A DNA stretch of 64,000 nucleotides from an uncultured Lutibacter sp. GTDB taxonomy: Bacteria > Bacteroidota > Bacteroidia > Flavobacteriales > Flavobacteriaceae. Location of the stretch: positions 62,001 to 126,000 of the forward strand of contig NZ_CANLZZ010000005.1 in assembly GCF_947495725.1 (NCBI RefSeq), in the 5' to 3' direction. The notes under the pieces were generated by a model. The model saw only the letters and a list, made by a program, of their open reading frames with translations, searched no databases and had not been told where the DNA came from. This document shows positions 18,038 through 63,939 of this stretch, one piece after another. Positions within the stretch are counted from its first letter, which is position 1. The number at the start of each line of letters is the position of its first letter. Made by a program: the position numbers and the translations under genes.

Positions 18038-18065
18038 TTTAATTAAAATATTATTACATTGAACA
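18036..18065. promoter_or_regulatory. Light-island operator A (imperfect)
   Basis: TGTTTAAT (18036-18043), 14 nt, ATTGAACA (18058-18065). Two mismatches in the right arm against the best copies, but with the same 22-bp half-site spacing. It covers the transcription start and the TTG start codon of the MerR gene, consistent with autorepression. Confidence 0.5.
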
Positions 18066-18958
18066 ATATTAAAACAGAATTTACCATAAAGGACCTTGAG
18101 AATTTTTCAGGTATTAAGGCTCATACTATTAGAATTTGGGAAAAAAGATACAATCTCCTAACTCCAAATAGAACAGAATCAAACATTCGATATTATGATA
18201 TTTACAATCTCCAAAAATTGTTAAATGTATCTTTTCTTAACAATAATGGATTAAAAATTTCAAAAGTAGCAGACCTTCCTGAATCGAAGTTGAATGCAAC
18301 TGTTAGAGAAATAATATCGAAAAAAGGAGCTGATTCTCAAGCTTCAAATACATTAAAATTAGCTATGCTAAATTTTGATGAAAACCTATTCAATGTAACA
18401 TATAATAATTTAATTGCGCAATCTTCTTTAAGAAGTGTTTATAAGAATGTGTTTTTGCCTTTTTTAAATGAAATTGGTATGTTATGGCAAGTAAATTCAA
18501 TAACTCCTGCTCATGAACATTTTATAACAAATCTTATTAAGCAAAAAATATTTATAAATATAGAGCGTTTACAACTTTCTTCTCCTACAAATTTTGATAA
18601 AGTATTTGTGTTGTATTTACCAATGAATGAAATTCATGAATTAGGTTTGCTGTATTTGCATTTTGAATTGTTGTTACATGGATATCAATCTATTTATTTG
18701 GGGCAAAGTGTGCCAGTGTCAAATTTAAATGATGTTCAAAAAGTATATAATTCTATCTGTTTTGTAAGTTATTTAACTGTTGAACCATCAAAAATATCTG
18801 TTTCTAATTATATTGAAAATGTTTCTAATACGGTTTTAAATGGAACCCAAGATGAGTTATGGTTAATGGGGAGAAAAACAGCAGAAATTAATGATAAGGT
18901 ATCTTTAGACAAAATTAAATTGTTTAGTTCTATTGAAGAATTGTTAAATAATTTATAA
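18059..18958 (+). CDS. MerR-family regulator with B12-binding domain (CarH/LitR type)
   Basis: 299 aa, TTG start (no in-frame ATG before residue 103). The N-terminal MerR winged helix (about 7-75) includes GIKAHTIRIWEKRYNLL. A helical bundle and a cobalamin-binding Rossmann domain follow. CarH landmarks: the W-x9-E-H cap as Trp143, Glu153, His154, and the lower-axial motif ExHxxG as Glu191/His193/Gly196. The residue after the Trp, which is the upper-axial His in Thermus CarH, is Gln144. In known cases adenosylcobalamin-bound tetramers repress carotenoid genes in the dark and light releases them. It sits 55 nt upstream of crtI, and its operator-like repeats recur across the island. Confidence 0.88.
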   Translation: MNNIKTEFTIKDLENFSGIKAHTIRIWEKRYNLLTPNRTESNIRYYDIYNLQKLLNVSFLNNNGLKISKVADLPESKLNATVREIISKKGADSQASNTLKLAMLNFDENLFNVTYNNLIAQSSLRSVYKNVFLPFLNEIGMLWQVNSITPAHEHFITNLIKQKIFINIERLQLSSPTNFDKVFVLYLPMNEIHELGLLYLHFELLLHGYQSIYLGQSVPVSNLNDVQKVYNSICFVSYLTVEPSKISVSNYIENVSNTVLNGTQDELWLMGRKTAEINDKVSLDKIKLFSSIEELLNNL

Positions 18959-18973
18959 AAATTCCTAAACAAA

Positions 18974-19005
18974 TTTGTTTTCTGTTTAATTATAAACTAT
19001 ATTTG
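18974..19005 (+). promoter_or_regulatory. Promoter of the crt operon
   Basis: TTTG (18974-18977), a 20-nt spacer, TATATTTG (18998-19005). The start site should fall around 19010-19012, at or within a few bases of the crtI ATG (19014), so the message may be leaderless. Confidence 0.72.
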
Positions 19006-19012
19006 TTAAACA
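18983..19012. promoter_or_regulatory. Light-island operator B at crtI
   Basis: TGTTTAAT (18983-18990), 14 nt, GTTAAACA (19005-19012). It spans the spacer and the entire -7 element of the crtI promoter, an ideal position for repression. A separate perfect 14-bp palindrome, AAACAAATTTGTTT, lies at 18968-18981. Confidence 0.7.
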
Positions 19013-19013
19013 A

Positions 19014-20471: not shown

Positions 20472-20499
20472 GTTTAAATTACTAACTAATAAAATAATT

Positions 20500-22276: not shown

Positions 22277-22962
22277 CATATTTATATTTATTAATAAATA
22301 TAGTAAGTTTTTCAGTTCCTTTTATCTATAGTTTTGAAAAAAAAATGCGCTTTATCCAATATTGGAAAGTTGTTTTTTTATCTATTTTAATTGTTGCGGT
22401 ACCTTTTTTAATTTGGGATGTTATTTTTACACTAAATGGTGTTTGGGGATTTAATTCTAAATATTATTTAGGAATAACCATATTTAAATTACCTTTAGAA
22501 GAAATACTTTTTTTTATATGCATTCCATATGCAAGTATTTTTACCCACTATGCATTTGAATATTTTTTTAAAAACCTGAAATTTTCAAATAAAGTAACAA
22601 AAACAATTTCGCTATTCTTACTTATTACAGCAATAGTTTTTCTTTTATATGGTTTTCCAAAAGCATATACCACAGTAAATTTTTCGTTGTTTGTGTTTTT
22701 AATGTGTTATTCGTTATTATCCAAGAACAATGTATTGAATAGGTTTTATATTACATTTTTAGTGGTGTTATTTCCTTTTTTTATAGTAAATGGATTATTA
22801 ACTGGAAGTTTTATTGCTGAAGAAGTAGTTTGGTATAACAATGCTGAAAACTTAGGGTTAAGGATTGGAACAGTGCCAATTGAAGATGTTTTTTATGCTT
22901 TTAATATGTTGTACCCAGCGCTTATTTTAATTGAAAAATTCAAATTAAATAAAAATGTTTAA
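22273..22962 (+). CDS. Lycopene beta-cyclase, fused CrtYc-CrtYd type
   Basis: 229 aa with about seven membrane helices. It carries two copies of the short 'lycopene cyclase domain' motif, PLEEILFF near 75 and PIEDVFYAF near 203, corresponding to the CrtYc and CrtYd halves that are separate genes in actinobacteria. It turns lycopene into beta-carotene, which CrtZ then hydroxylates. Its stop codon lies inside the next operator (22956-22985). Confidence 0.92.
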   Translation: MTYLYLLINIVSFSVPFIYSFEKKMRFIQYWKVVFLSILIVAVPFLIWDVIFTLNGVWGFNSKYYLGITIFKLPLEEILFFICIPYASIFTHYAFEYFFKNLKFSNKVTKTISLFLLITAIVFLLYGFPKAYTTVNFSLFVFLMCYSLLSKNNVLNRFYITFLVVLFPFFIVNGLLTGSFIAEEVVWYNNAENLGLRIGTVPIEDVFYAFNMLYPALILIEKFKLNKNV

Positions 22963-22985
22963 CAAAAAACTTTGAAAGTTAAACA
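22956..22985. promoter_or_regulatory. Light-island operator C (perfect)
   Basis: TGTTTAAC (22956-22963), 14 nt, GTTAAACA (22978-22985): arms fully complementary. It covers the -33 region of the FAS1-gene promoter. Confidence 0.72.
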
Positions 22986-23001: not shown

Positions 23002-23047
23002 TACCAACGCAAATAAAAGGGCGTTATTTTTTTAGCTAAATTTAAAA

Positions 23048-23077
23048 TGTTTAACATAAATAACATAAAGTTAAACA
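23048..23077. promoter_or_regulatory. Light-island operator D (perfect, in the leader)
   Basis: TGTTTAAC (23048-23055), 14 nt, GTTAAACA (23070-23077). Identical arms and spacing to the copy 92 bp upstream. It lies downstream of the predicted start site, where a bound protein could block elongation or loop to the first copy. Confidence 0.7.
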
Positions 23078-23141
23078 AAGTCGAGATAAGCCGAACAAAG
23101 ACTTTAAAAGTAGTAAGCATTAAATATAAAATAATAATGTT

Positions 23142-24542: not shown

Positions 24543-24565
24543 TAATAGTTAGTTAAATTTGTAAG

Positions 24566-24604
24566 CGCTGGATAAATCCAAATTATTCAGCGTTTTTTTT
24601 TATA
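24566..24604 (+). terminator. Terminator after the FAS1 gene
   Basis: Stem CGCTGGATAA with TTATTCAGCG (one G-T pair), a 7-nt loop, then nine or more T. Only two bases separate it from the photolyase ATG, so photolyase is either read through or has an unseen promoter. Confidence 0.75.
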
Positions 24605-24606
24605 AT

Positions 24607-25884
24607 ATGAAGAAAATTGCTGTTTTTTGGTTTCGAAGAGATTTAAGGTTAGAAGATAATTGTGCATTATTTCATGCATTAAATTCAAAATATCCAGTAT
24701 TACCAATTTTTATTTTTGATAAAGAAATATTGTCAGAATTACCTAAAAATGACGCGAGAGTGCAATTTATTCACCAATCGTTGTCTAAAATTAAAAGTGA
24801 ATTACAGAAAGTAAATACTTCGTTATATATTTTAAATACAAATGTAGTCGATGCTTGGGAGCAAATTTTTCAGGAGTTTAACGTTAAAGAAGTATTTTTT
24901 AACAGAGATTATGAACCGTATGCTAATAAGCGTGATGCTAAAATTTCAAACCTTTGCAAAAGTAAAGGAGCTGAAGTTAATAATTTTAAAGATCAAGTAA
25001 TTTTTGAAAAAAGTGAAATTACAAAAGTTAATGGTTTACCTTACACGGTATATACGCCTTATAAAAAAAAGTGGCTTTTAGAATATCATAATTCAAATAT
25101 TCAACAATTTCCTTCAGAAAAATTAACTAATAATTTTTTAAAAAATACGTTTCAATTTCCTACGTTGGAAGAAATTGGTTTTGTTGAAAACAAGATTCAA
25201 GTGTTGCCAATTAATTCAAAATGCATAGATAATTACGAGAGGTATAGAGATATTCCGTCTGTAGAAACATCAAACATATCGGTGCATTTACGTTTTGGAA
25301 CCATTAGTATTCGAAAATTAATGGCGTACGCTATTAAAACAGAATCAACGTTTACGAGCGAATTAATTTGGCGTGAATTTTTTATGCAAATTCTATATCA
25401 TTTTCCAAAAGTGGTGAATGAAAATTTTAAATCAAAGTATAATTTTATTCCATGGAGAAATAACGAACAGGAATTTAAAATGTGGTGCGAAGGAAAAACT
25501 GGCTACCCGATCGTTGATGCTGGTATGCGTCAACTTAATGAAACAGGTTATATGCACAATAGGGTTAGAATGATTGTTGCTAGCTTTTTGAATAAGCATT
25601 TGTTAATAGATTGGCGTTGGGGCGAAGCATATTTTGCTGAAAAGTTATTAGATTTTGAATTATCCGCAAATAATGGTAATTGGCAATGGGTTGCGGGTAC
25701 TGGTTGTGATTCAGCACCGTATTTTAGAGTTTTTAACCCAACTACACAGCAACAAAAATTTGATCCAGATTTAAAATACATTAAAAAATGGAATCCTAAC
25801 TATAGTAACATTCCAGAAATAGTAGAACATAAATTTGCCAGAGAACGTTATTTAGAGGTTGTAAAAAAGTCTTTATTGCAATAG
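24607..25884 (+). CDS. phr: Deoxyribodipyrimidine photolyase (class I cryptochrome/photolyase family)
   Basis: 425 aa. The N-terminal photolyase domain (FWFRRDLRLEDN at 8-19) would bind an antenna chromophore, the C-terminal domain FAD. The family signature NGNWQWVAGTG, then CDSAPYFRVFNP and FDPDLKYI near 357-395, and RMIVASFL with WRWGE, are all present. Likely repairs cyclobutane pyrimidine dimers with blue light. It converges on the DUF2867 gene with 9 nt between the stops. The nearby pterin genes could supply a pterin or folate antenna (inference). Confidence 0.93.
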   Translation: MKKIAVFWFRRDLRLEDNCALFHALNSKYPVLPIFIFDKEILSELPKNDARVQFIHQSLSKIKSELQKVNTSLYILNTNVVDAWEQIFQEFNVKEVFFNRDYEPYANKRDAKISNLCKSKGAEVNNFKDQVIFEKSEITKVNGLPYTVYTPYKKKWLLEYHNSNIQQFPSEKLTNNFLKNTFQFPTLEEIGFVENKIQVLPINSKCIDNYERYRDIPSVETSNISVHLRFGTISIRKLMAYAIKTESTFTSELIWREFFMQILYHFPKVVNENFKSKYNFIPWRNNEQEFKMWCEGKTGYPIVDAGMRQLNETGYMHNRVRMIVASFLNKHLLIDWRWGEAYFAEKLLDFELSANNGNWQWVAGTGCDSAPYFRVFNPTTQQQKFDPDLKYIKKWNPNYSNIPEIVEHKFARERYLEVVKKSLLQ

Positions 25885-25893
25885 GTTGGTGGG

Positions 25894-27315
25894 TTATTTT
25901 GCTAAATTAGAAATCATTCCGTTAAATATAAACCAATGAAATGGTATAACTGAATACCAATATAAACGACCTGCAACACCTTTAGGTCTAAAAGTTGCAG
26001 TTTGATATAAAATATTGTCTTCTATTTTAAACTCTAACCAAGCTTCTCCAGGAAGTTTCATTTCAGCATATAGTAATAACCTTTTTTGTTTTTTGTCAGC
26101 GTAAATTACACGCCAAAAATCTAGAGAATCACCCACATTGAGTTCTATTGGGTTTGTTCGTCCTCTTCTTAAACCAATTCCTCCAAAAACTTTGTCGAAA
26201 AAACCTCTAAGTTTCCATAAAAAATCTCCGTAATACCAACCATTTTCTCCTCCAATAGCCCAGATTTTATCAAGCGTTTTTGTTGGATTTGTAATGGTTC
26301 GTTGTTTCATATCTTTAAAGCATCCGTAGCTTGGTACATTAATGTATTCGTGGGCGTTATGTTGCAAGAGACCACTAATAAAAGAGTCTTTCCAGCTAGA
26401 AACAATACTGTTTTGTTCAATTTTTACAAATGCTTTTTTTATTGCTTTTTTATAAGAAATAGGGTGTATGTTTAAGATTTTATTGATGTTGCTCGGCTTT
26501 CCAATAATTTCTATACCCATGCTATTTACCAATGAAGCAGCAAGTTTGTATGATGTGGATGTTACAAAATATAACCAATAGGAAGATAATTTTGGTGTCA
26601 TTATTGGTACAGTGAAAATATATCTTTTCAAACCTCTTATTTTAGCAAATTCAAGTAACATTTCTTGATAGGTTAATATTTCTGGACCAAAAATATCAAA
26701 AGATTTTCGGTACAATTGTTCATTTCCTATAGCTCGTAATAAAAAATTTAAAACGTCTCTTATGGCGATAGGTTGTGTTTTTGTGTTTAGCCATTTTGGA
26801 GCAATCATTACGGGTAGTTTTTCAACTAAATCTCTAATGATTTCAAACGAAGAACTTCCAGATCCAACAATAATTCCTGCTTTAAAAGTAGTTAATGCAT
26901 AAACGTTTGATTGTAAAATTGTTTCTACATTTTTTCTTGATAATAAATGTTTAGAAAGCTTCGTGTCGTTAGTAATGCCACTTAAATATATCACTTGCTT
27001 TGCGGTAGTTGTTTCAATAAATAGCTTGAAATTTTGAGCGCATTGTTCTTCTAAAGAATGAAATTCTGTCGAAGAATTAGACATAGAGTGTATAAGATAG
27101 TATGCAACATCTATATCTTTTGGAATAGTTGATAATGTTTCAGGCTTTAAAAAGTCTGATTCCACAACAGAAATAAGTTCGTCTCGAGTGTTGTTGAATT
27201 GATGTGCTCTTGACGCATCTCTTACAGAACAAACTACGGTGTGACCTTCATTTAATAATAAAGGAATTAATCTTTTTCCAATATAGCCAGTTGCTCCTGT
27301 GACAAGAATTTTCAT
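25894..27315 (-). CDS. NAD(P)-binding epimerase-like protein with DUF2867 tail
   Basis: 473 aa. The N-terminal atypical SDR/NmrA-like Rossmann domain starts MKILVTGATGYIGKRLIPLL and lacks the usual YxxxK. The C-terminal domain (about 330-473), with DSLDFWRVIYADKK and LPGEAWLEFKI, is DUF2867. Such fusions recur beside photolyase genes in many bacteria; the substrate is unknown. Its ATG follows the stop of the flavin-reductase gene directly (27315/27316). Last gene of the four-gene TetR operon. Confidence 0.88.
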   Translation of the reverse strand: MKILVTGATGYIGKRLIPLLLNEGHTVVCSVRDASRAHQFNNTRDELISVVESDFLKPETLSTIPKDIDVAYYLIHSMSNSSTEFHSLEEQCAQNFKLFIETTTAKQVIYLSGITNDTKLSKHLLSRKNVETILQSNVYALTTFKAGIIVGSGSSSFEIIRDLVEKLPVMIAPKWLNTKTQPIAIRDVLNFLLRAIGNEQLYRKSFDIFGPEILTYQEMLLEFAKIRGLKRYIFTVPIMTPKLSSYWLYFVTSTSYKLAASLVNSMGIEIIGKPSNINKILNIHPISYKKAIKKAFVKIEQNSIVSSWKDSFISGLLQHNAHEYINVPSYGCFKDMKQRTITNPTKTLDKIWAIGGENGWYYGDFLWKLRGFFDKVFGGIGLRRGRTNPIELNVGDSLDFWRVIYADKKQKRLLLYAEMKLPGEAWLEFKIEDNILYQTATFRPKGVAGRLYWYSVIPFHWFIFNGMISNLAK

Positions 27316-27933
27316 TTATTTTATGGGTCTTTGGTAATCCATTCGTTCTTTTAAATTTGGAATAGCATAGCCATCCAAACCATTTATAGTGGCAATTGCT
27401 CCTTTTGATAAATTAATAAAGCCATCATTTTCTAATAAACTATCTTCAATGTATAACCCTTGTATTTCTCCAATTACAAGTTTTGTGTTGTTTGCTTTTA
27501 TATTGTATTCTTCTATATATTTCATCCCTAATTGTATTGGGCTGTTTTTAACAAAAGGTGCGTAAAATTTGTCTTTATAAGCTGTTTCTAAATCTGTAAC
27601 ATCAAATTCAGATACAGATTTATCGTATTTTGCTGATGTATGGTGTGCGTCTTTTAATATGTTTTCATGGATATGATTAATGGTGAAATAACCAGTTTCC
27701 ATAATGTTTTCATAGGTATCTCTAGGAACTGTTGTTGGTCTTAAAATAAAACCCAATAATGGAGGTGAAGATCCTAGATGAATAACTGAACTAAAGATAG
27801 CTAAATTTGTTATAGCATCGGTTGATTTTGTAGCAATTAAATTAGCCGACTTGTAACCTGCACAGCTATTAATAAGATTAATTTTATATAAATGTTCTAA
27901 AGAATTGATAGCTTCTTTGTTAAAATAATTCAT
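27316..27933 (-). CDS. Flavin reductase-like FMN-binding protein
   Basis: 205-aa split-barrel protein of the flavin reductase-like family. Recognisable segments include NLIATKSTDAITNLAIFSS and PPLLGFILRPT (about 28-67) and GYFTINHI, the pattern used to hold FMN. It may provide reduced flavin or act as an oxidoreductase. It overlaps the upstream ABC1 gene by one base and abuts the DUF2867 gene, so all three are co-translated. Confidence 0.85.
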   Translation of the reverse strand: MNYFNKEAINSLEHLYKINLINSCAGYKSANLIATKSTDAITNLAIFSSVIHLGSSPPLLGFILRPTTVPRDTYENIMETGYFTINHIHENILKDAHHTSAKYDKSVSEFDVTDLETAYKDKFYAPFVKNSPIQLGMKYIEEYNIKANNTKLVIGEIQGLYIEDSLLENDGFINLSKGAIATINGLDGYAIPNLKERMDYQRPIK

Positions 27934-29246
27934 TATAATTTGTTGAAATTATTAATTTGAATGTCTTTAGCTTTTAGATCAAACATTAAATTGTACAATC
28001 CGAAAAAGGTTCTGTTGATGTAAATAAAATGTTTGGAACCTCTGTTTCCATTCATGTTTTTTAGTTCAGAACTTTTAGAATAGCGTTCTCCTAAAGCTGC
28101 AATTTGTTGAAAGAAATCTGGATTGGAAAAATCGAATGTTTCTTCGTGAAATGGCTGTGTAAATAAACTCAACATATCGTGAAACATAGCTGTAAAAAAC
28201 TCCAATTCTTCTTCAGAATCATCTGCTCTTAAAATTTCTAATTCAAATAAAGTATCTTTAAATAATTGAGCGTTGTTAATGTTTTCTTTTTTAGCTAATT
28301 CAAAATAAGGAATATAAAACTCATTTGGTATGGTTTTCATACAGCCAAAATCAATGGCAATTAACTCACTGTTTTCTGAAATTAAAAAATTACCAGGATG
28401 CGGATCAGCGTGTACCTTTTTTAATCGGTGAATTTGATACATATAAAAATCCCACAAAGCTTGACCTAGTTTATTTGATTTTTCTTGATTTGTGTTGTGC
28501 GCTGTAAATTCAGATAAATGTTCACCGTGCATCCAATCCATGGTAATAATTCTTTCAGAAGACCAATCTTCATAATAATTGGGGAATTTTAAATTAGGAA
28601 TATGTGCACAGGCTTTTACAATTTCTTTACTTTGTGCAACTTCTAAAATATAATTGGTTTCTTCAATAAGCTTGTCTTCAACTTCTTTAAAATATTTATC
28701 AGAGTCTTTTCCTCTAATATTAAACATGCTTATAGCAATAGGTTTTACCAATGCTAAATCACTTGAAATACTGTTTGCGATTCCTGGATATTGGATTTTA
28801 ACAGCCAATGCTTTTCCATTTTTTGTGGCTTTGTGTACTTGTCCAATACTAGCTGCGTTTACAGAAGTTGCATTAAAAGTGTCAAACAATTCACTTGGAG
28901 ATTTACCAAAGTATTTTTTAAACGTTTTTACAACCAAAGGTGCGGATAGCGGTGGTACTGAGAACTGTGATAATGAAAATTTTTCTACATAAGCCTGTGG
29001 TAAAATACTTTTTTCCATACTCAGCATTTGAGCCACTTTTAAAGCGCTACCTTTTAATTTTTTAAGTCCGTCGTAAATGTCTTCGGCATTGTTTTTATTT
29101 AATTTTTCTTTTGCATCAATTTCTGAAGATACCAGTTTATCACTATAATATTTTATGTAATTTACACCAACTTTAGCGCCAGTTTGTACTAGTTTTGATG
29201 CACGTTGTATTTTTGAAACGGGAATAGAATCTATAGATTTTATCAT
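27933..29246 (-). CDS. ABC1/UbiB-family atypical kinase
   Basis: 437 aa. The ABC1 hallmark KxxQ helix (ALKVAQMLSME at about 72-82), the Ala-rich nucleotide loop NAASIGQVHKA, HADPHPGNFL and IAIDFGCM all point to the AarF/ABC1/UbiB family. Relatives support quinone synthesis and, in plastids, carotenoid- and prenyl-lipid-rich plastoglobules and light stress. Here it lies in the light island downstream of a TetR gene (7-nt gap), so a lipid or quinone role under light is likely. Confidence 0.9.
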   Translation of the reverse strand: MIKSIDSIPVSKIQRASKLVQTGAKVGVNYIKYYSDKLVSSEIDAKEKLNKNNAEDIYDGLKKLKGSALKVAQMLSMEKSILPQAYVEKFSLSQFSVPPLSAPLVVKTFKKYFGKSPSELFDTFNATSVNAASIGQVHKATKNGKALAVKIQYPGIANSISSDLALVKPIAISMFNIRGKDSDKYFKEVEDKLIEETNYILEVAQSKEIVKACAHIPNLKFPNYYEDWSSERIITMDWMHGEHLSEFTAHNTNQEKSNKLGQALWDFYMYQIHRLKKVHADPHPGNFLISENSELIAIDFGCMKTIPNEFYIPYFELAKKENINNAQLFKDTLFELEILRADDSEEELEFFTAMFHDMLSLFTQPFHEETFDFSNPDFFQQIAALGERYSKSSELKNMNGNRGSKHFIYINRTFFGLYNLMFDLKAKDIQINNFNKL

Positions 29247-29253
29247 AAGTGTT

Positions 29254-29910
29254 TTAGTTTGAATTCATTTTTTCTTTATACAAAAACTTGCCAAGATCTA
29301 TAACGCTTTTTAAAGGTGCTGTATTTAGTAAATCAAAACTTGTGTTCACAGCTTTTTCAATAAAAATATCAGTTTTTTCAAAGGACGCAGAATTGTCATT
29401 TATCCAAAACTTAATAGTAATTAAAAATTGCATCCAAGCACTTTCTTCAATTGCTTTATCTTGAAATTTAGAAATCTTTTGCTCTTTAAAATCAAGCGTA
29501 TCAATATTTAGTTCACTTATAAATTTTGTGAATGAATTTTTTAAGATATTAAGTGTTCTTAATTTCTGTAAATTTATGGATCCATTATTAAGAACTAATA
29601 ATAGGTAACTTCGGTTTGCAGAAAAATTTTCAAAAAAAGTGAAATAAAAACTTAACAACTTACTTCTAGAATCAAAAGTTAGGTATTCTTCACTTTTATT
29701 TAAAGTCTCTAAAGTGTTATTGAAGAATGTATTAAGTATTTCTTTTTCAATTCCTTCAAAGGAACCAAAATAGTTGTAGAACTCACTTTCTTCAAAATTT
29801 GCCGCTTTTGCAAATGCATAAACAGATTTTGGTGGAGTGTTGTTTTCTAACACAAAATTCATATAACTCGATATAATTTCTGAATGTGATATTTTTTTGT
29901 TTTTTGCCAT
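29254..29910 (-). CDS. TetR/AcrR-like transcriptional regulator
   Basis: 218 aa. The N-terminal helix-turn-helix (about 8-55) reads SVYAFAKAANFEESEFYNYFGSF, a divergent TetR recognition helix; the C-terminal half is helical and ligand-binding. It opens the minus-strand operon with ABC1, flavin reductase and DUF2867 genes. Operator E lies 13 bp upstream of its start. It is the second candidate regulator of the island beside the B12-MerR. Confidence 0.85.
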   Translation of the reverse strand: MAKNKKISHSEIISSYMNFVLENNTPPKSVYAFAKAANFEESEFYNYFGSFEGIEKEILNTFFNNTLETLNKSEEYLTFDSRSKLLSFYFTFFENFSANRSYLLLVLNNGSINLQKLRTLNILKNSFTKFISELNIDTLDFKEQKISKFQDKAIEESAWMQFLITIKFWINDNSASFEKTDIFIEKAVNTSFDLLNTAPLKSVIDLGKFLYKEKMNSN

Positions 29911-29922
29911 TACGTTATTTAG

Positions 29923-29952
29923 TGTTTAATAAAATACAATACAAATTAAACA
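29923..29952. promoter_or_regulatory. Light-island operator E at the TetR operon
   Basis: TGTTTAAT (29923-29930), 14 nt, ATTAAACA (29945-29952): fully complementary arms, 22-bp spacing. No consensus -7 element was found on the minus strand here, so the promoter itself is not assigned. Confidence 0.68.
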
Positions 29953-30044
29953 AAAAATATTAAAATAATATTATATTTAGAATAATTAAACTTTATTGCA
30001 TTATAGTTAAAATATATGTCAATATCTATTTAACCATCTTATAT

Positions 30045-30074
30045 TGTTTATATTTACACAAATTAAGTTGAACA
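30045..30074. promoter_or_regulatory. Light-island operator F at the pterin operon
   Basis: TGTTTATA (30045-30052), 14 nt, GTTGAACA (30067-30074). One arm pair is less perfect, but the 22-bp spacing is kept. It overlaps TATATTTA (30049-30056), one base off the -7 consensus, and ends 4 bp before the ATG. Confidence 0.55.
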
Positions 30075-30078
30075 AAAT

Positions 30079-30492
30079 ATGAATAATAGATTTGCAGTTA
30101 CCAGAAGAGAACATTTTAATGCAGCTCACAGATTGCACAATGCAAACTGGTCTCTTGAAAAAAATAAAGAGGTGTTTGGTAAATGTAATAACCCAAACTT
30201 TCATGGGCACAATTACGAGTTGGAAGTGAAGGTGATTGGAGAAATTCAGGATGATACAGGATACGTGGTTGACACAAAAAAATTGTCTAACCTTATTAAA
30301 AATGAGGTATTAGATAAATTTGATCACCAAAACTTAAATTTAGATGTGGAAGAATTTAAATCTTTAAATCCAACAACTGAAAACATTGCAAAGGTTATTT
30401 ATTTGATTTTAAAACCTCTAATTGAAACGCAGTATGAACTAAAAATTAAATTATATGAGACACCAAGAAACTTTGTTGAATTCCCTTACTAA
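30079..30492 (+). CDS. 6-pyruvoyl-tetrahydropterin synthase / QueD family
   Basis: 137 aa of the PTPS/QueD family, acting on 7,8-dihydroneopterin triphosphate, the product of FolE. Zinc ligands His17 (FNAAH), His42 and His44 (FHGHNY), catalytic Cys36, Asp82/His83 (FDHQNL) and Glu127 (YETPRN) are all visible. The next gene is a GTP cyclohydrolase whose start overlaps this gene by 38 nt, which makes a pterin pathway likely. A queuosine role (QueD) cannot be excluded, but no queC or queE is present here. Confidence 0.9.
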   Translation: MNNRFAVTRREHFNAAHRLHNANWSLEKNKEVFGKCNNPNFHGHNYELEVKVIGEIQDDTGYVVDTKKLSNLIKNEVLDKFDHQNLNLDVEEFKSLNPTTENIAKVIYLILKPLIETQYELKIKLYETPRNFVEFPY

Positions 30493-31156
30493 TGGAACGA
30501 AACTAAATGGTTTTACTTTTGATGAGATAGGTGACGATCATTTATATACAGGAGTGGAAACTCCAATGAAGAAAGATGCTTTTTTGCTAAGTGATACAGA
30601 AAAGAAAGATAAAATTGCTGATTTATTTTCCCAAATAATGGATGTAATGGGATTGGATTTAACCGATGACTCCTTGAAAGGAACGCCTAAAAGAGTTGCT
30701 AAAATGTATATAGACGAAATTTTTTCAGGCTTAAATCCCAAGAATAAACCAAAAATAGCGTTGTTCGAAAATAAATATAAATACAACCAAATGTTGGTTG
30801 AAAAAAACATACAATTTTACTCAAATTGTGAGCATCATTTTGTGCCAATTTTTGGAAAAGTACACGTGGCTTATGTTTCTTCGGGAAAAGTAATAGGACT
30901 TTCGAAAATTAATAGAATTGTACAGTATTTTGCAAATAGACCTCAAGTACAAGAGCGTTTAACAAATCAAATAGCTATGGAGTTGTCTTCTATTTTAGAA
31001 ACCGATGATGTTGCCGTTATTGTAGATGCAAAGCATTTGTGTGTGGCTTCAAGAGGTATTAAAGATGATTCTTCGGCAACCGTGACTAGTTTTTATGGAG
31101 GTGTTTTTAATAAACCAGAGAAAATTGTAGAACTTCAAAATTATTTAAAACTATAG
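30455..31156 (+). CDS. folE: GTP cyclohydrolase I, light-island paralogue
   Basis: 233 aa; opens the GTP ring to 7,8-dihydroneopterin triphosphate. Zinc ligands Cys125/His128 (NCEHHF) and Cys196 (HLCVASRG) are intact. Close in sequence to the second folE at 63253-63939, from residue 23 on. Start: the only ATG before the conserved part is at 30455, which overlaps the PTPS gene by 38 nt, so translation is probably coupled. Presumably a regulated copy feeding the adjacent PTPS, while the other copy serves folate. Confidence 0.93.
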   Translation: MRHQETLLNSLTNGTKLNGFTFDEIGDDHLYTGVETPMKKDAFLLSDTEKKDKIADLFSQIMDVMGLDLTDDSLKGTPKRVAKMYIDEIFSGLNPKNKPKIALFENKYKYNQMLVEKNIQFYSNCEHHFVPIFGKVHVAYVSSGKVIGLSKINRIVQYFANRPQVQERLTNQIAMELSSILETDDVAVIVDAKHLCVASRGIKDDSSATVTSFYGGVFNKPEKIVELQNYLKL

Positions 31157-31158
31157 TT

Positions 31159-31380
31159 ATGGAACTTATAAAAAAAGCTTTAGAATTTGAACAACGTAAA
31201 TTATCATTAAAAAGCACAAATGATAGAATTTTAGCTTCAAAAGAAGTTAAAAGTTTGATTTTAGGGATTAATGAGATATATAAAGAAACTAAAAATCCAG
31301 AGTTGATGGATATTATGAAGCGTTTAACAGTTATTAAGCGTAAAGTTGAAAAACGATTAAAATTGCGAATTACTGTTTAA
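31159..31380 (+). CDS. Small hypothetical protein of the pterin operon
   Basis: 73 aa, Lys-rich (about one residue in five) and predicted all-helical; no Cys, no signal. Starts 2 nt after folE and ends 9 nt before the SDR gene, so it is plainly part of the operon. I recognise no family. It could be a small partner of FolE or the SDR. Confidence 0.72.
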   Translation: MELIKKALEFEQRKLSLKSTNDRILASKEVKSLILGINEIYKETKNPELMDIMKRLTVIKRKVEKRLKLRITV

Positions 31381-31389
31381 TAACTAAAA

Positions 31390-32073
31390 ATGAAAACAAT
31401 TGTAATTATTGGTGGTAGTAAGGGAATTGGCAAAGCTATTTCTCAAATGAAATTAAATTTGAACAAGGTTATAAATTTAAGTAGGACAAAACCAGATTTT
31501 GAACATGTAAATTTAACCCATTATACTTGTGATATTTTAAAAGATGAGTTACCTGATTTAAATTCGGTTGATGCGCTAATTTATTGCCCGGGTAGTATTA
31601 ATTTAAAGCCGTTTACTCGTTTAAAAATTGAGGATTTTAAAACGGATTTTGAAATTAATTTTTTAGGAGCGGTAAAAGCAATTGAAAAATATTTACCTTT
31701 ATTAAAAGAGGCTAATTCGCCATCTATTTTATTGTTTAGTACCGTTGCAACAAAATTAGGAATGCCTTTTCACGCGAGTATTGCCTCGTCAAAATCAGCC
31801 GTTGAAGGTTTGGTAAAATCTTTGGCCGCAGAATTTTCACCTTTAATAAGAGTGAATGCTATTGCACCAACTGTAACAAATACTAGTTTAGCTTCTAGAC
31901 TTTTAAGAAATGATAAAACGAAAGAACAAATGATTGAAAGACACCCTTTAAAAAAATATTTACAACCTGAAGAAATTGCAGAGATGGCTTCGTTTTTAAT
32001 TTCAGAAAAAGCAGCATCTATGTCTGGGCAAATAATAGAAATGGATTGTGGAATAACCACATTAAAAGTTTAA
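31390..32073 (+). CDS. SDR-family protein with an altered catalytic triad
   Basis: 227 aa with the Rossmann motif GGSKGIGKAI (8-17) and the C-terminal NAIAPTVTNT loop. In the active site Lys135 is kept (ASSKSAVEG), but the catalytic Tyr position is Ile131 and the Ser position is Thr118. It may use another residue, such as Ser130, or act as a non-enzymatic binder. SDRs such as sepiapterin or pteridine reductases finish tetrahydrobiopterin synthesis after PTPS, which would fit the neighbours; this is inference only. Confidence 0.82.
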   Translation: MKTIVIIGGSKGIGKAISQMKLNLNKVINLSRTKPDFEHVNLTHYTCDILKDELPDLNSVDALIYCPGSINLKPFTRLKIEDFKTDFEINFLGAVKAIEKYLPLLKEANSPSILLFSTVATKLGMPFHASIASSKSAVEGLVKSLAAEFSPLIRVNAIAPTVTNTSLASRLLRNDKTKEQMIERHPLKKYLQPEEIAEMASFLISEKAASMSGQIIEMDCGITTLKV

Positions 32074-32088
32074 TAAAATTTTATTTAA

Positions 32089-32649
32089 ATGAAAATAGTT
32101 GGAATTATAACAAGTTTAATCGTTTCGTTGGTTTTTATTGGCGAAATAAATTCAAAAATAAATAATATTATGGAAAACACACCATCGCTTTATAGTATTT
32201 CAATAAATAGTATAACTGGAGAGCCTATTAATTTTGAAAATTTTAAAGGAAAAAAAATACTTATAGTAAATACCGCTTCTAAATGTGGTTTTACAGGGCA
32301 GTATAAAGATTTGGAAAAATTATATAACACCTACAAAGATAAGCTTGTGGTAATAGGAGTTCCTTGTAATCAATTTGGAGGACAAGAACCAGGTACATTA
32401 ACCGAAATTCAATCGTTTTGTGAAGTTAATTATGGGGTTACTTTTTTATTAACCGAGAAAGTAGATGTGAAAGGAGATAATCAACATCCTTTATATAAAT
32501 GGTTAACAAATAAAGAAATGAACGGAGTTAAAAGTTCATCAGTAAAATGGAATTTTCAAAAGTATTTATTAAATGAAAAAGGTGAACTTATTGATTACTA
32601 CTATTCCATAACAAAACCAATGAGTTCTAAAATTACAAAGCATCTATAA
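32089..32649 (+). CDS. Glutathione peroxidase family peroxidase
   Basis: 186 aa. Cys-type peroxidase with peroxidatic Cys66 (NTASKCGFT), Gln99 (FGGQEPG), Trp154/Asn155 (VKWNF) and a possible resolving Cys111. Bacterial members usually use thioredoxin and reduce lipid or hydrogen peroxides. A hydrophobic N-terminal segment (about 4-18), absent from standard 160-aa members, suggests membrane anchoring or export; an internal ATG at residue 28 would give the standard form. Its stop overlaps the tspO start (TAATG). Confidence 0.92.
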   Translation: MKIVGIITSLIVSLVFIGEINSKINNIMENTPSLYSISINSITGEPINFENFKGKKILIVNTASKCGFTGQYKDLEKLYNTYKDKLVVIGVPCNQFGGQEPGTLTEIQSFCEVNYGVTFLLTEKVDVKGDNQHPLYKWLTNKEMNGVKSSSVKWNFQKYLLNEKGELIDYYYSITKPMSSKITKHL

Positions 32650-33110
32650 TGAAACAGTTAATGTGGTTACTATTGTTTTTATTTATAAATTTTTCTGCAC
32701 TAGGAGTTGGAAGTTGGTTAATGAGCAATGGTCCAACGTCGGGTTGGTATTTAACTTTAAATAAGGCGCCTTGGACTCCTCCAGGTTGGGTTTTTGGAGC
32801 GGCTTGGACTATCATAATGATTTGTTTTTCAGTGTATTTGTCCTATTTGGTGAATATAAAAGAAGCTAACACATTTTGGATGTTATTTTCAATACAATTT
32901 ATTTTAAATGTTTCTTGGAACTTTATTTTTTTTAATCAGCATGCAATTGGTTTAGCTTTAATAGTAATTATTTTACTTACCGTATTAATAACTTATTATA
33001 CGTTTGCTTTTCTCTCTGAAATGAAATTCAAAACATTATTAATTGCACCTTATATTATATGGTTACTTATTGCAACTAGTTTGAATGCTTATACTTATTT
33101 AAAAAATTAA
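32649..33110 (+). CDS. tspO: TspO/MBR tryptophan-rich sensory protein
   Basis: 153 aa, five membrane helices, with the family motif APWTPPGWVFGAAWT (about 37-51) and the WNFIFF helix. TspO binds porphyrins and is linked to light, oxygen and tetrapyrrole stress responses in Rhodobacter and others. Translationally coupled to the peroxidase upstream; SRPBCC and CIA30 genes follow. Confidence 0.93.
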   Translation: MKQLMWLLLFLFINFSALGVGSWLMSNGPTSGWYLTLNKAPWTPPGWVFGAAWTIIMICFSVYLSYLVNIKEANTFWMLFSIQFILNVSWNFIFFNQHAIGLALIVIILLTVLITYYTFAFLSEMKFKTLLIAPYIIWLLIATSLNAYTYLKN

Positions 33111-33120
33111 TTTTAGCTAT

Positions 33121-33606
33121 ATGAGATTTTCATCAAAAGGAATTGTTTATCGATTATCCTCAAAACAACAATTACCAATTTCTATGGATAAGGCTTGGGA
33201 GTTTTTATCAAATCCAGCTAATTTAAAAGAAATTACACCAACATATATGAGTTTTGATATTATTAGTGGAGCAGATAGACCAATGTTCGCTGGACAAATA
33301 ATTCAATACATAGTAACTCCAATTTTAGGAATTAAAACAACTTGGGTCACAGAAATTACACATGTAGTTAATAAGCAGTATTTTGTTGATGAGCAACGCT
33401 TTGGTCCTTATGCGCTTTGGCATCATAAACATTTTATTAAACCCGTAAAAGGTGGAGTTGAAATGGAAGATATTATAGATTATAAAGTGCCATTTGGTAT
33501 TTTAGGACGATTGGTTCACCCAATACTAGTTAAACCCAAACTACAGGAAATTTTTAAATATAGACAAGCTAAATTAATTGAACTTTTTGGGGATTACAAT
33601 CAATAA
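33121..33606 (+). CDS. SRPBCC-family (START-like) ligand-binding protein
   Basis: 161 aa of the helix-grip fold: PISMDKAWEFLSNPANLKEITP at the N-terminus (about 20-41) and a long C-terminal helix ending KLIELFG. The family binds hydrophobic ligands in a cavity; related cell-division-inhibitor SulA-like annotations are common but unproven. Located 10 nt after tspO in the same operon, so a lipid, carotenoid or tetrapyrrole ligand is possible. Confidence 0.85.
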   Translation: MRFSSKGIVYRLSSKQQLPISMDKAWEFLSNPANLKEITPTYMSFDIISGADRPMFAGQIIQYIVTPILGIKTTWVTEITHVVNKQYFVDEQRFGPYALWHHKHFIKPVKGGVEMEDIIDYKVPFGILGRLVHPILVKPKLQEIFKYRQAKLIELFGDYNQ

Positions 33607-33624
33607 AACTTAATAATTTAACTA

Positions 33625-34131
33625 ATGACAATAGATAGACCTACTATGCCTACGATTTTTAATAGTGAAAAAAACAGTAATGTATCTGGTTGGAGAATAA
33701 TTAATGATGGGGTAATGGGAGGTAATTCAAAAGGTACTTTTTATTTAAATGAAGAGAGGGTAGGAGTTTTTAAAGGAACTGTTTCTACTAAAAACAACGG
33801 AGGGTTTACATTATTAAGAAATCGAATTTCAAAAATAAAAACTACGGAATTTAAAAAAGTAATATTGAATATTAAGGGAGATGGAAAAAGATATCAATTT
33901 AGATTAAAGTCAAACAAAAACGATCAACATTCTTTTATAACCTATTTTGAAACAACAGAAGATTGGCAACAAATTGAAATTTTATTAACTGAAATGACGC
34001 CAAATTTTAGAGGACAAAAATTGGATCTTCCTAATTACAATGGAGCACAAATTGAAGAAATAGGTTTTTTAGTGGGAAATAAAAAAAATGAAAATTTTAA
34101 ACTTCAAATTAAAAGTATAATACTGAAATAA
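33625..34131 (+). CDS. CIA30-family protein
   Basis: 168 aa with the CIA30 beta-sandwich pattern: WRIINDGVMGGNSKGTF near 22-38, FKGTVSTKNNGGF, then a C-terminal IEEIGFLVGNKK. Mitochondrial CIA30 assists complex I assembly; bacterial homologues are mostly uncharacterised and often sit in light or redox stress clusters. Last gene of the pterin/peroxidase operon, 18 nt after the SRPBCC gene. The first ATG is used; MPTIFNS at residue 8 is an alternative start. Confidence 0.85.
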   Translation: MTIDRPTMPTIFNSEKNSNVSGWRIINDGVMGGNSKGTFYLNEERVGVFKGTVSTKNNGGFTLLRNRISKIKTTEFKKVILNIKGDGKRYQFRLKSNKNDQHSFITYFETTEDWQQIEILLTEMTPNFRGQKLDLPNYNGAQIEEIGFLVGNKKNENFKLQIKSIILK

Positions 34132-34620
34132 TTTAATTCAATTAGTGAAAATAGTATAAAACTAGACAATATTGTAATAGTTAATACATCAACTTTCCAC
34201 TTTTTAAAATGTTAAAGCTGCACAGTTCATTTTCTCCTATTAAGCAGTGTCTAATAAATTATCTGGTTGATATTATAAATTTACTTCCAAAAACTTTTAA
34301 CTTAATTTATGGTATTTAAGAATATAAAAGTTCCGCTTAAAATTGAGTTATTTTAAAAATTAAAACGTGTATTTATGTATTTTTAATAAGTCAAAAAGTA
34401 TGTTAATTACCGTTTTGTTGTAAAACTACAATTTAAGTAATTTTGTATTTAATAGAATACAAACTAGTCTTTAAATATGACCTAATTTTTGTGTTAATGC
34501 ATTGTTAATATTGTTACATAGAATCATTAAATTGGTTATCCAAACAGGTTAACCAGCATACAGTAAGATTATTATGATAATTATTTTTATTCTTTCTAAA
34601 TAATTTCTTAATTGTTTTAA
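34132..34620. other. Long AT-rich intergenic region
   Basis: No coding region is visible. One promoter-like pair, TTTG (34414-34417), 20 nt, TAATTTTG (34438-34445), could start a long leader for the downstream oxidoreductase or a small RNA. No clear terminator hairpin for the CIA30 operon was seen. Confidence 0.4.
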
Positions 34621-34634
34621 CTGATATATATCAG
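34621..34634. promoter_or_regulatory. FNR/CRP-like box upstream of nifJ
   Basis: CTGATATATATCAG is a perfect 14-bp palindrome matching the TGAT-N4-ATCA core of FNR/CRP-type sites. Its centre (34627.5) is about 41-42 bp upstream of the start site predicted from TAATTTTA (34657-34664), the classic class II activator position. That fits oxygen control of an oxygen-sensitive enzyme. Inference. Confidence 0.5.
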
Positions 34635-34656
34635 CATAACTTCAGGTTAATTCTTC

Positions 34657-34664
34657 TAATTTTA
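34657..34664 (+). promoter_or_regulatory. Candidate -7 element of nifJ
   Basis: TAATTTTA is one base off TAnnTTTG. It has no good -33 TTTG, consistent with an activator-dependent promoter using the palindrome just upstream. Start site near 34669, leader about 84 nt. Confidence 0.4.
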
Positions 34665-34752
34665 CAATACTTAAATTAATAATTAAATATAATTTGTAGC
34701 TACTTCATAACAATTAAACTACAAATTGTTTTACGTAAATAACAAAGAAGAA

Positions 34753-37700
34753 ATGAAACCAGAAACAAAGAAATTAATTTGTGATGCTAATGAGGCGGTT
34801 GCCATAGTAGCACACAAAACGAATGAGGTTTGTGCAATTTATCCAATTACACCTGCCTCTCCAATGGGTGAACATGTTGATGTTTATAGTGCAAAAGGTC
34901 AAGAAAACATTTGGGGAGATGTTCCTCGAATTGTTGAAATGCAAAGTGAGGCAGGAGCTGCAGGGACTGTTCATGGATCTTTACAAGGTGGAGCACTAAC
35001 AACTACTTTCACGGCATCTCAAGGACTTTTATTAATGATACCAAATATGTATAAAATGGCAGGGGAATTATTACCTACTGTTATTCATGTTGCTGCAAGA
35101 ACTTTGGCAACACATGCATTGTCTATTTTTGGTGATCATTCAGATGTTATGTCGGCACGTCAAACTGGTTTTTCAATGTTATTTGGTGGTTCTGTTCAAG
35201 AGGCACACGATTTTGCATTAATTTCTCAAGTGGCAGCTTTAAAAAGTAAAGTTCCATTTATGAATATTTTTGATGGATTTAGAACATCTCATGAAATTTC
35301 TAAAATCGATGCTATTTCTGATGATGTTATAAAAGCAATGATGCCAGAAGAGGAAATAATGAAACATAAAAAAAATTCATTAGATCCAGACAATCCTGTA
35401 TTAAGAGGTACAGCTCAAAATCCTGATGTATTTTTCCAAGCACGTGAAGCTGCAAATATATATTATGAAAGAGTTCCAGAAATTGTACAAGATACAATGG
35501 ACGAGTTTTATAAGCATACAGGAAGAAAATATAGCTTATTTTACTATGTAGGTCATCCAGAAGCTGAAAAAGTGGTTGTTATCATGGGATCTGGTCAAGG
35601 TCCGGTTATGGAAACTATTGATACTTTAGTTGAAAAAGGTGAAAAGGTTGGAGCATTATTTGTGCGTTTATACCGTCCGTTCTCAATAAGTAACTTTATT
35701 GAACAAATGCCAAAAACAGTTAAAAAAGTTGCTGTTTTAGATAGAACTAAAGAACCAGGAAGTACAGGAGAACCATTATACTTAGATGTAGTAACAGCGT
35801 ATGTAGAGATGGGAGAAAAAATGCCAACTGTTGTTGGTGGTCGTTATGGTTTATCTTCAAAAGAATTTACTCCAACAATGGTAAAAGGTATCTTTGATGA
35901 ATTGGATAAAAATTCACCTAAAAATCACTTTACAATTGGTATTAACGATGATGTAACTCATACAAGTTTATCTTATACACCAGGTTTCCAAACTAAAAAA
36001 TCTACATTTAACTGTATGTTTTATGGTTTAGGATCTGATGGTACAGTAGGAGCAAATAAAAATTCAATTAAAATTATTGGTGAAACTACAGATAATTTTG
36101 TTCAAGGATATTTTGTTTATGACTCTAAAAAAGCTGGAGCCCAAACAGTTTCGCATTTACGTTTTGGACCAGAACCAATTTATTCTAATTACTTAATTAC
36201 AACAGCTAACTTTATTGCTTGTCATCAATTTAGTTTTATTCACAAATATGATGTTTTAGGTCATATTAAAGAAGGAGGAACATTTCTATTAAACTCTCCT
36301 TATTCTAAATATAAAGTTTGGACAGAGCTTCCAAGTTCAATGCAACAAACAATTATAGATAAAAATATAGATTTCTATGTAATTGATGCAACAAAAGTAG
36401 CGCAAGAAGCTAAATTAGGAAAGCGTACAAATACAGTTTTACAAACTTGTTTCTTTGCAATTTCGGGCGTACTTCCAAAAGATGAAGCAATTAAGAAAAT
36501 TAAAGAAGCCATTGTAAAATCATACTCTAAAAAAGGTGATGCAGTTGTTCAAATGAACTTTAATGCCGTAGATAAATCATTAGATAATCTAGAAAAAGTT
36601 GAATATCCTCGTCATACAACAAATAAAGATGGTTTATTACCAATGATGACAGATAACGCTGATGATTTTGTTAAAGAAATTTTAGGAACAATTTTAGCTG
36701 GTAAAGGAGATTCACTTCCGGTAAGTGCTTTTGCTGCAGATGGTACATTCCCAACAGGAACTACTCAATATGAAAAACGTGGAATTGCAGATGCTGTTCC
36801 AACTTGGGACGATGCAGACCTTTGTACACAATGTAACAAGTGTGTTAACATTTGTCCACATGCTGCAATTAGAGCTAAAGTAGTTTCAAACGATTTATTA
36901 GAAAATGCACCTGCAGGATTGAAACATGTTCCTGCAAAAGGTAGACCGTTTGATAAAGACAATGAAAGTTATATACTTCAAGTATCTCCGCAAGATTGTA
37001 CGGGATGTGATCTTTGTGTAGCTGTTTGTCCTGCAGAAAGTAAAGAAGTTGAAGGTGTATTTGCTATTAACTTAGCTAAAAAACTAGAAGTAGAAAAAGT
37101 AGAAGATGAAAACTGGGATTTCTTTATTAATTTACCAGACTATGACAGAAAAGAATTAAAAACTTCTACCGTAAAAGGATCGCAATTTTTAGAACCATTA
37201 TTTGAGTTCTCTGGAGCTTGTTCTGGTTGTGGTGAAACACCTTATATTAAATTAATAACTCAATTGTACGGTGATAGTATTATGATTGCCAATGCAACAG
37301 GTTGTTCATCAATTTACGGAGGAAATTTACCAACTACTCCTTATACAACAAATAAAAAAGGTAGAGGACCAGCTTGGGCAAATTCATTATTTGAAGATAA
37401 TGCAGAGTTTGGTTTAGGTATGCAATTAGCATTAACTAAAAAACAAGAAATAGCAGTTGGTTTATTAAAGTCTTTAGAATCAAAAATAGGAAGTACTTTG
37501 GTTAATAAAATCATAGATTCTCCTGAAGATACTGAAACTTTAAAAGAAGAAAAATTAGCAGATATTGAAGAGTTAAATGCAATATTAGATACCATTGATA
37601 CTTATGAAGCCAAAAAATTAAGAAACCTATCTGAATACTTACGTAAAAAAGCAGTTTGGATATTTGGTGGTGATGGTTGGGCTTATGATATTGGTTACGG

Positions 37701-63252: not shown

Positions 63253-63939
63253 ATGTTTGAAGGTAAAGACATAATGACAAATAAAATAGATGAATTAGGA
63301 GAAGATCATATTGGTTCTTCTGCTAAAACTCCTTTAAGAGATGATGCATTTAAATTATCTGATGAAGAAAAAAGAAAACGTATAGAAAGTAGTGTGCGTG
63401 ATATTTTGGATACATTAGGAATGGATTTAAATGATGACAGTATAAAAGGCACTCCGAGAAGAGTGGCAAAAGCTTATGTAGATGAAATATTTGGAGGATT
63501 AAATCCTGCAAATCGACCAAAATTATCCACATTTGATAATAATTATAAGTATGGTGAAATGTTAGTAGAAAAAAACATTGTGGTTTATTCTACCTGCGAG
63601 CATCATTTATTACCTATAATTGGACGTGCTCATGTTGCTTATATTTCTAACGGAAACGTTATTGGTTTGTCTAAAATGAACAGAATAGTAGACTATTTTG
63701 CAAAAAGACCACAAGTTCAAGAACGTTTAACTATGCAAGTAGTTCAGGCGCTACAACAAGCTATGGGAACTGAAGATGTTGCTTGTGTTATTGACGCAAA
63801 ACACTTATGTGTAAATTCAAGAGGTGTTAAAGATATTGACAGTAGTACTGTAACTTCAGAATTTGGTGGTAAATTTAAAGACAAAGACGTTCGAAGAGAG
63901 TTTTTAGATTATATTAAAATGGATACGGATTTTGATTAA
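63253..63939 (+). CDS. folE: GTP cyclohydrolase I, housekeeping copy
   Basis: 228 aa from the first ATG; MTNKIDELGEDH at residue 8 (63274) is an equally possible start. Zinc ligands Cys115/His118 (TCEHHL) and Cys186 (HLCVNSRG); substrate loop GNVIGLSKMNRIV. Clearly homologous to the light-island copy at 30455-31156, but isolated from pterin genes and lacking the 30-bp operator, so it probably supplies folate constitutively. Confidence 0.95.
   Translation: MFEGKDIMTNKIDELGEDHIGSSAKTPLRDDAFKLSDEEKRKRIESSVRDILDTLGMDLNDDSIKGTPRRVAKAYVDEIFGGLNPANRPKLSTFDNNYKYGEMLVEKNIVVYSTCEHHLLPIIGRAHVAYISNGNVIGLSKMNRIVDYFAKRPQVQERLTMQVVQALQQAMGTEDVACVIDAKHLCVNSRGVKDIDSSTVTSEFGGKFKDKDVRREFLDYIKMDTDFD

Follow-up and report, generated by a model that had tools for sequence, protein, structure and literature searches.

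The stretch of DNA analyzed here, referred to as the window, comprises 64,000 nucleotides (nt) from an uncultured Lutibacter sp. (Flavobacteriaceae, Bacteroidota), whose genome amounts to 4.24 Mb in 29 contigs. Its subject is a run of genes headed by a 6-pyruvoyl-tetrahydropterin synthase (PTPS) gene that overlaps a second GTP cyclohydrolase I (FolE) gene, followed by a small open reading frame (ORF) and a gene for a protein with a short-chain dehydrogenase/reductase (SDR) fold:

30079..30492, plus strand: PTPS of the PTPS-II type, with the motif CNNPNFHGH
30455..31156, plus strand: second FolE, starting within the PTPS gene
31159..31380, plus strand: protein of 73 amino acids (aa) with three predicted helices, conserved in many such islands
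31390..32073, plus strand: SDR-fold protein without the catalytic Tyr (FHASIASSK), adh_short_C2
32089..32649, plus strand: glutathione peroxidase-like protein (GPx), member of the gene run
32649..33110, plus strand: TspO/MBR family protein, member of the gene run
33121..33606, plus strand: SRPBCC (polyketide cyclase-like) protein, at 23.0 bits slightly under the Pfam cut-off of 23.4
33625..34131, plus strand: CIA30 family protein, member of the gene run
63253..63939, plus strand: housekeeping FolE, for contrast, 57% identical to the FolE at 30455

Pfam matches were clear for PTPS (PF01242, E=8.9e-36), FolE (PF01227, E=1.3e-60) and the SDR (adh_short_C2, E=1.5e-35). PTPS and FolE overlap by 38 nt when the first ATG is called, and gaps of 2 and 9 nt separate the 73-aa ORF from FolE and the SDR, respectively, exactly as in an earlier description of this DNA made without database searches (the sequence-only reading). 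This had presented the four genes as a unit. They are indeed contiguous, but GPx, TspO, SRPBCC and CIA30 extend the run to 34131 at spacings of 15, -1, 10 and 18 nt, and the pterin genes are the head of an eight-gene run rather than a four-gene unit. Three Lutibacter records (L166-L168, of which L166 stops at SRPBCC) show the genes from TetR to SRPBCC arranged alike, as does, without the 73-aa gene, the family genome G113, so the arrangement goes beyond chance. By PTPS, the nearest named relatives are Lutibacter records (80-82%).

The window PTPS carries C36-x5-HGH together with HRL at residue 17, DHQNLN at 82 and YET at 126. Cx5HGH is the motif of PTPS-II enzymes, and the whole accompanying set, i.e. 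Cx5HGH with the zinc His, DH and the C-terminal Glu, is present. The closest solved structures are the PTPS chains 1b66 (E=3.3e-30) and 3i2b (E=1.6e-28), which we take to be the rat and human enzymes, while chains named 6-carboxytetrahydropterin synthase matched at 2.7e-7 or weaker. The sequence has neither CxxxHGH nor ExxHGH, given as the QueD and PTPS-III motifs, respectively, in passages of PMC5041015. Two further family members are encoded in the genome, a stand-alone PTPS (CANPNYHGH) adjoining an IDI-like gene and a protein of QueD type (CKNVHGH). Judged from its sequence, the window protein is of the true 6-pyruvoyl-tetrahydropterin synthase type. The sequence-only reading had named a QueD identity as what would refute it, and motif, structure matches and the separate QueD-type gene all speak against QueD. 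On plasmids, PTPS had no match at 1e-20.

The second FolE scored 277.1 bits with NF006824 (cut-off 202) and contains the CEHH and HLC motifs; that it exists apart from a housekeeping folE at 63253 was correctly noted before, both genes being real. FolE of the window type occurs in 32 of 120 family genomes (74-100% identity to the window's, the next best being 65%), and in four of these (G000, G113, G118 and G066) PTPS overlaps it. When named genomes were scanned with the window PTPS, 80 loci were retained; choosing them by likeness to that protein favors the coupled type. From 78 of these loci, three family loci and the window we drew 82 PTPS-FolE pairs; pairs and family genomes are related, and counts over them are not independent. 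The called overlap was 38 nt in 31 pairs and 41 nt in 33 (64 of 82 together), as counted from first-start ORF calls, which may err for genes whose translation actually begins at a later codon. In the window FolE, later TTG starts at codons 7 and 8 would leave an overlap of 20 or 17 nt. Most FolE proteins without PTPS also carry a leader of similar length, which makes such a leader plausible. The conservation of the overlap may partly come from PTPS, because the overlapping ATG falls in the codons of its conserved YET.

In a PTPS tree, from which 17 Dyadobacter-type rows had been dropped beforehand and in which 41 of 88 inner branches are open and few strong, coupled and stand-alone proteins separate with two label changes, compared to a mean of 26.4 after shuffling. 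The second PTPS of the window genome groups with the stand-alone proteins. L223, with an 18-nt gap to FolE, is likewise placed among the stand-alone proteins, and L211, where the record ends after PTPS, among the coupled. As far as these sequences tell, the FolE-coupled PTPS is a lineage spread over Bacteroidota and the pair is old. Loss also seems to occur: in G037 (L124), where FolE stands without PTPS, the frame ahead of it reads ILYERSRNIVAFPY, resembling a PTPS C-terminus, and this apparent remnant suggests that PTPS was lost there.

A palindrome, TGTTTAA-N16-TTAAACA, was derived from the regions upstream of tetR, PTPS and SRPBCC in relatives. It replaced two first operator guesses, AGTTNAACAAAA (one mismatch, 15 found and 12.2 expected) and TTGTTTAWATWTTTR (two mismatches, 33 found and 27.8 expected), whose counts were within chance. 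The palindrome and the genes around it are as follows:

18059..18958, plus strand: CarH/LitR-like MerR with B12-binding domain (PF13411 and PF02607), likely light sensor
18983..19012, no strand assigned: perfect operator before crtI
22956..22985, no strand assigned: perfect operator before the fasciclin gene
23048..23077, no strand assigned: second perfect operator before the fasciclin gene
24607..25884, plus strand: DNA photolyase, the sole PF03441 match found in the genome
29254..29910, minus strand: TetR-type regulator (TetR_C_23), divergent from PTPS and the first island gene in many relatives
29923..29952, no strand assigned: perfect operator in the TetR/PTPS divergent region
30045..30074, no strand assigned: PTPS-proximal operator with two mismatches, perfect in L166 and L168 within 2 bp of the equivalent place

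Running opposite to the PTPS run are the genes for TetR, an ABC1-type kinase, a flavin reductase and an NAD-binding/DUF2867 protein. Upstream lie the photolyase, the fasciclin protein, carotenoid genes (amine-oxidase/crtI-like, phytoene synthase and lycopene cyclase) and the MerR regulator, so the photolyase and carotenoid genes said to adjoin the unit are both there. The photolyase gene has no site of its own (zero or one mismatch); it is located after the fasciclin gene, which has two. Rfam gave nothing at gathering scores over 17900-34800.

Of the five perfect sites in the whole genome, four lie in the window and the fifth on contig C8; the reversed control gave none. Over the 120 family genomes, 326 perfect sites were found in 90 genomes, compared to 14 reversed-pattern sites in 13. 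Within 160 bp upstream of PTPS, 27 of the 82 pairs have a site with at most one mismatch (23 of them perfect), and the reversed motif has none. Other spacers are rare there: none of 10-14 or 18-22, one of 15 and four of 17. The operator precedes PTPS in 23 of the 35 pairs with an SDR within 6 kb and in 4 of the 47 without. In Algoriphagus/Belliella-type loci it lies 29-31 bp ahead of PTPS in 11 of 12 cases (L240 is without). No operator was found near PTPS in the Tenacibaculum loci L170, L171, L173 and L184, where PTPS sits inside a long island, nor in five Emticicia-type loci with PTPS, FolE and SDR (L207, L214, L215, L227 and L228), where a different regulator may be at work. At the fifth perfect site (L154:9374-9403, contig C8:63373), a promoter-like TATATTTG starts 7 bp downstream, and the gene of an 803-aa TonB-type receptor (named by eye) begins 35 bp past the site; it is possible, going by this placement, that it encodes a light-regulated outer-membrane receptor.

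Residues 8-245 of the MerR protein could be aligned with Thermus CarH (5c8d, E=5.6e-12), and the protein carries W-x9-EH at residue 143 and ExHxxG at 191, in agreement with the CarH/LitR pattern W-x9-EH plus [DE]xHxxG. Its score with the NCBIfam CarH model, 71.7 bits, is far under the cut-off of 400 and leaves the subfamily unsettled. Light sets CarH free from its operator. CarH/LitR proteins are described, in passages of PMC9758184, as repressors of light-inducible genes, and by analogy the window MerR would likewise repress such genes. The operator was found in 88 of the 96 family genomes with a window-type MerR and in 2 of the 24 without (four of the latter named by elimination). The sequence-only reading had postulated a shared operator under light control. 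The operator is borne out by the four perfect copies and their tie to the CarH-like regulator; light control gains from this association and from the position ahead of PTPS, while the light response itself is inferred. One family genome, G047, which belongs to the genus of the window genome, has none of MerR, TetR, SDR, light-type PTPS and FolE, or perfect operator.

It seems unlikely that the palindrome belongs to the divergent TetR and conveys a signal other than light. Sites do precede tetR in many islands, and G079 (a genome 81% complete) has TetR and six sites with no MerR found. Split by regulator, however, the operator occurs in 69 of 74 genomes with both MerR and TetR, 19 of 22 with MerR alone, one of two with TetR alone and one of 22 with neither, and in 12 of the 21 genomes with listed site places a site lies at most 160 bp from the 3' end of the merR match (by eye). 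Moreover, among three genomes whose MerR is distant (34-40%), G038 and G066 carry TGTCTAA-N16-TTAGACA, and G040 has the same with N17, so that regulator and operator possibly changed together, to judge by these sequences; Cyclobacteriaceae with a MerR of comparable distance (38-41%) retain TGTTTAA. This variant operator (N16 or N17) precedes tetR in L046 and L132, and in L121 it precedes PTPS.

The SDR had been read as completing an order FolE, PTPS, SDR that mirrors tetrahydrobiopterin (BH4) synthesis, and this part of the sequence-only reading was not supported. The Tyr of YxxxK marks catalytic SDRs and sepiapterin reductase. In an alignment of 84 proteins (one row per locus, rows under 140 bits excluded), the window's included, its place is taken by Ile or Val in all 84, while every one retains the Lys, as well as a His three positions ahead of the Tyr site. 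The predicted structure is an ordinary SDR fold, and the best 60 of 104 solved relatives include no protein named as a sepiapterin or pteridine reductase. We therefore dropped sepiapterin reductase as an identity. A second SDR, encoded at L154:14961-15641 close to the fifth operator, was considered as a sepiapterin reductase as well, but its best 60 of 150 solved relatives include no protein of that name.

An SDR match was found in 88 family genomes, 43 with the close form (at least 56% identity, the window's included) and 43 with a second form (42-51%). The close form belongs to a long island that is incomplete in many genomes; at its fullest, the order is TetR-ABC1-flavin reductase-DUF2867-cryptochromes-orf142-DUF2805-FolE-p73-SDR-GPx-TspO-SRPBCC-photolyase. 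For the second form, loci were fetched from 20 of the 43 genomes, and none of the 20 mapped neighborhoods holds FolE or PTPS; photolyase occurs in 19 and SRPBCC in 18. Neither of two annotated plasmid loci, in Mesorhizobium and Spirosoma, has FolE or PTPS alongside, and on the Spirosoma plasmid (hit H1) no pterin or photolyase genes are named within 6 kb of the SDR. On the Mesorhizobium terrae plasmid (L247), a Tyr-less SDR (AAHASVSMAK) was seen amid MsrPQ, fasciclin, CIA30, cryptochrome, photolyase and TspO genes, and a frame in the unannotated plasmid hit H2 shows the form HASVAMAK of the motif. By sequence and neighborhood, the protein thus appears to be mainly an SDR of photostress, often found together with the pterin pair, and is not evidence for a BH4 pathway.

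With this, a full BH4 pathway, with the SDR as sepiapterin reductase and BH4 as cofactor of e.g. phenylalanine hydroxylase, becomes improbable. The gene order and the PTPS-II type agree with it, a Biopterin_H protein is encoded in the genome, and in loci of Cyclobacteriaceae, Emticicia and, with the 73-aa gene in between, Lutibacter, the SDR comes after the PTPS-FolE pair. Besides the missing Tyr and the relatives without FolE or PTPS, the position of the hydroxylase among tyrosine-breakdown genes (names by eye) and the absence of all 16 genome sites with zero or one mismatch from its vicinity count against it.

The 73-aa protein has no Pfam or NCBIfam family, and its best solved-fold match reached only E of about 1; three helices were predicted with a mean pLDDT of 85. 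Its relatives are of about 71-78 aa, basic and predicted three-helix, and sometimes occur as two different tandem copies per island. In many Flavobacteriaceae islands (L039, L040, L041, L047 and others), FolE is preceded by proteins of 90 aa, presumably DUF2805, and 142 aa. PTPS takes their place in Lutibacter, and all three precede FolE in Tenacibaculum.

From the gene identities (by sequence), the conservation of the pair and the distribution of the operator, all of which are observed directly, we infer a light response, the identity of the repressor, co-transcription, flux, product and role as follows. With a probability of roughly two in three, the run is a light-derepressed operon that raises the flux from GTP to 6-pyruvoyl-tetrahydropterin, forming the pterin branch of a regulon for photoprotection. 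In darkness, the CarH-type MerR/B12 repressor (18059) would occupy the TGTTTAA-N16-TTAAACA palindromes. Light would release it from them, allowing transcription of the run from PTPS to CIA30 along with that of the carotenoid and fasciclin genes and of TetR-ABC1-flavin reductase. FolE and PTPS would then send extra GTP via 7,8-dihydroneopterin triphosphate to 6-pyruvoyl-tetrahydropterin, on a route separate from the housekeeping folE, the stand-alone PTPS and QueD. What is made would probably be a reduced, unconjugated (biopterin-like) pterin against light stress, and the SDR a photostress SDR rather than the usual sepiapterin reductase. We prefer a biopterin-like photoprotectant because the pair shares its operator with carotenoid genes and adjoins peroxidase-like and photostress genes, because no site with zero or one mismatch lies near the aromatic hydroxylase, and because a UV-A-induced biopterin glucoside is recorded in a cyanobacterium (passages of PMC3546692). 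More tentatively, and less likely than not, the light-induced reduced pterin might be a dedicated photoprotectant or photo-cofactor, made by an overlapping PTPS-FolE pair under a B12-light operator and finished or used by a Tyr-less SDR with an invariant His, acting on a pterin or a photodamage product.

Several observations weigh against a light-controlled pterin operon. PTPS adjoins the light-type FolE in only 4 of the 32 family genomes that have it. Neither operator nor nearby SDR accompanies 43 of the 82 pairs, and since 34 of these 43 also lack any light-island gene sought within 6 kb, the pair itself is not light-specific. At loose thresholds the palindrome is not enriched, with 39 sites in the window at up to three mismatches (39.04 expected) and 223 in the genome at up to two (234 in the control). 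As two-mismatch matches are no commoner than chance, the 30045 site means little alone, and the weight rests on its perfect orthologues. Furthermore, MerR was present in 43 of 44 pair-holding genomes tested (44 of the 80 loci), including Dyadobacter ones without an operator at PTPS, and it failed as a phylum-wide discriminator.

A supply of folate for the photolyase antenna (methenyl-tetrahydrofolate), with FolE boosting folate in the light, is quite unlikely. The light-type FolE stands without an adjoining PTPS in 28 of its 32 family genomes and beside photolyase/cryptochrome genes in many of the 30 mapped loci, as such a supply would have it, but the window PTPS lacks the PTPS-III motif and, from general pathway knowledge, draws dihydroneopterin triphosphate, for which it competes with folate synthesis, away from that route. 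That PTPS is a QueD and the unit serves queuosine is very improbable, as the 76-bit match to the NCBIfam QueD model is under its cut-off of 89.25, the motif and the separate QueD-type gene rule against it, FolE scores only weakly with the QueF model (under that model's cut-off), and none of the 20 window proteins given to Pfam (18059 to 34131) is a queC, queE or queF neighbor.

The hitherto vague question of why light regulons in non-phototrophic bacteria contain pterin genes becomes testable: the operator is defined, a B12 photoreceptor can be proposed, the enzyme is of PTPS-II type, and there are relatives known by name, Lutibacter agarilyticus with the same arrangement and Algoriphagus and Tenacibaculum with a related one. 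Through the operator, a light regulon could also be read from the sequences of Flavobacteriaceae and Cyclobacteriaceae.

Compared with known systems, the window MerR shares the MerR helix-turn-helix, the B12 domain, W-x9-EH and ExHxxG with Thermus thermophilus CarH (5c8d), although overall similarity is low, in a comparison by sequence. PTPS resembles the PTPS-II of animals and Synechococcus, which serves BH4 synthesis (passages of PMC5041015), in Cx5HGH, DH and YET, and differs in overlapping FolE and in having no accepted sepiapterin reductase in the unit. In Oscillatoria, UV-A raises a biopterin glucoside that is a proposed protectant (PMC3546692, in the same passages); the role proposed here, a biopterin-type pterin as light protectant, is alike, whereas a Pfam search of 20 window proteins found no pteridine glycosyltransferase. 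A photolyase gene cluster is enriched in proteorhodopsin-positive marine Flavobacteriia (PMC5932025) and is, like the present one, photolyase-centered; the main text of that paper has no mention of 'pterin', 'cyclohydrolase' or 'MerR'. Among the papers listed in searches of the open literature, with most subscription journals outside coverage, we recognized neither a light-controlled PTPS operon in Bacteroidota nor TGTTTAA-N16-TTAAACA.

The nearest precedent is the LitR-bound, light-induced folM-folE-folX operon of Pseudomonas mendocina. According to passages of PMC9758184, gel shifts show LitR bound to the promoter region of folM, and in the light folM rises 2.4-2.5-fold and folE 1.6-3.3-fold; folE is also light-induced in P. 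putida (passages of PMC8508746). Because this LitR-controlled operon is already published, the Lutibacter run is best regarded as a variant of a known light-pterin operon. Shared with the P. mendocina system (class II LitR) are a MerR/B12-domain repressor, folE in an operon with a reductase gene and photolyase genes in the same setting, which in P. mendocina are induced by light as well. Light is sensed by a LOV protein in P. mendocina and probably by B12 in Lutibacter, and the P. mendocina operator is TGTACA-N12-TGTACA (published Pseudomonas LitR form T(G/A)TACA-N12-TGTA(C/T)A, PMC9758184), compared to TGTTTAA-N16-TTAAACA here. The P. mendocina operon has FolX and FolM, and the Lutibacter unit has PTPS instead. 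New relative to the Pseudomonas precedent are thus PTPS in place of FolX, a different operator and a different phylum.

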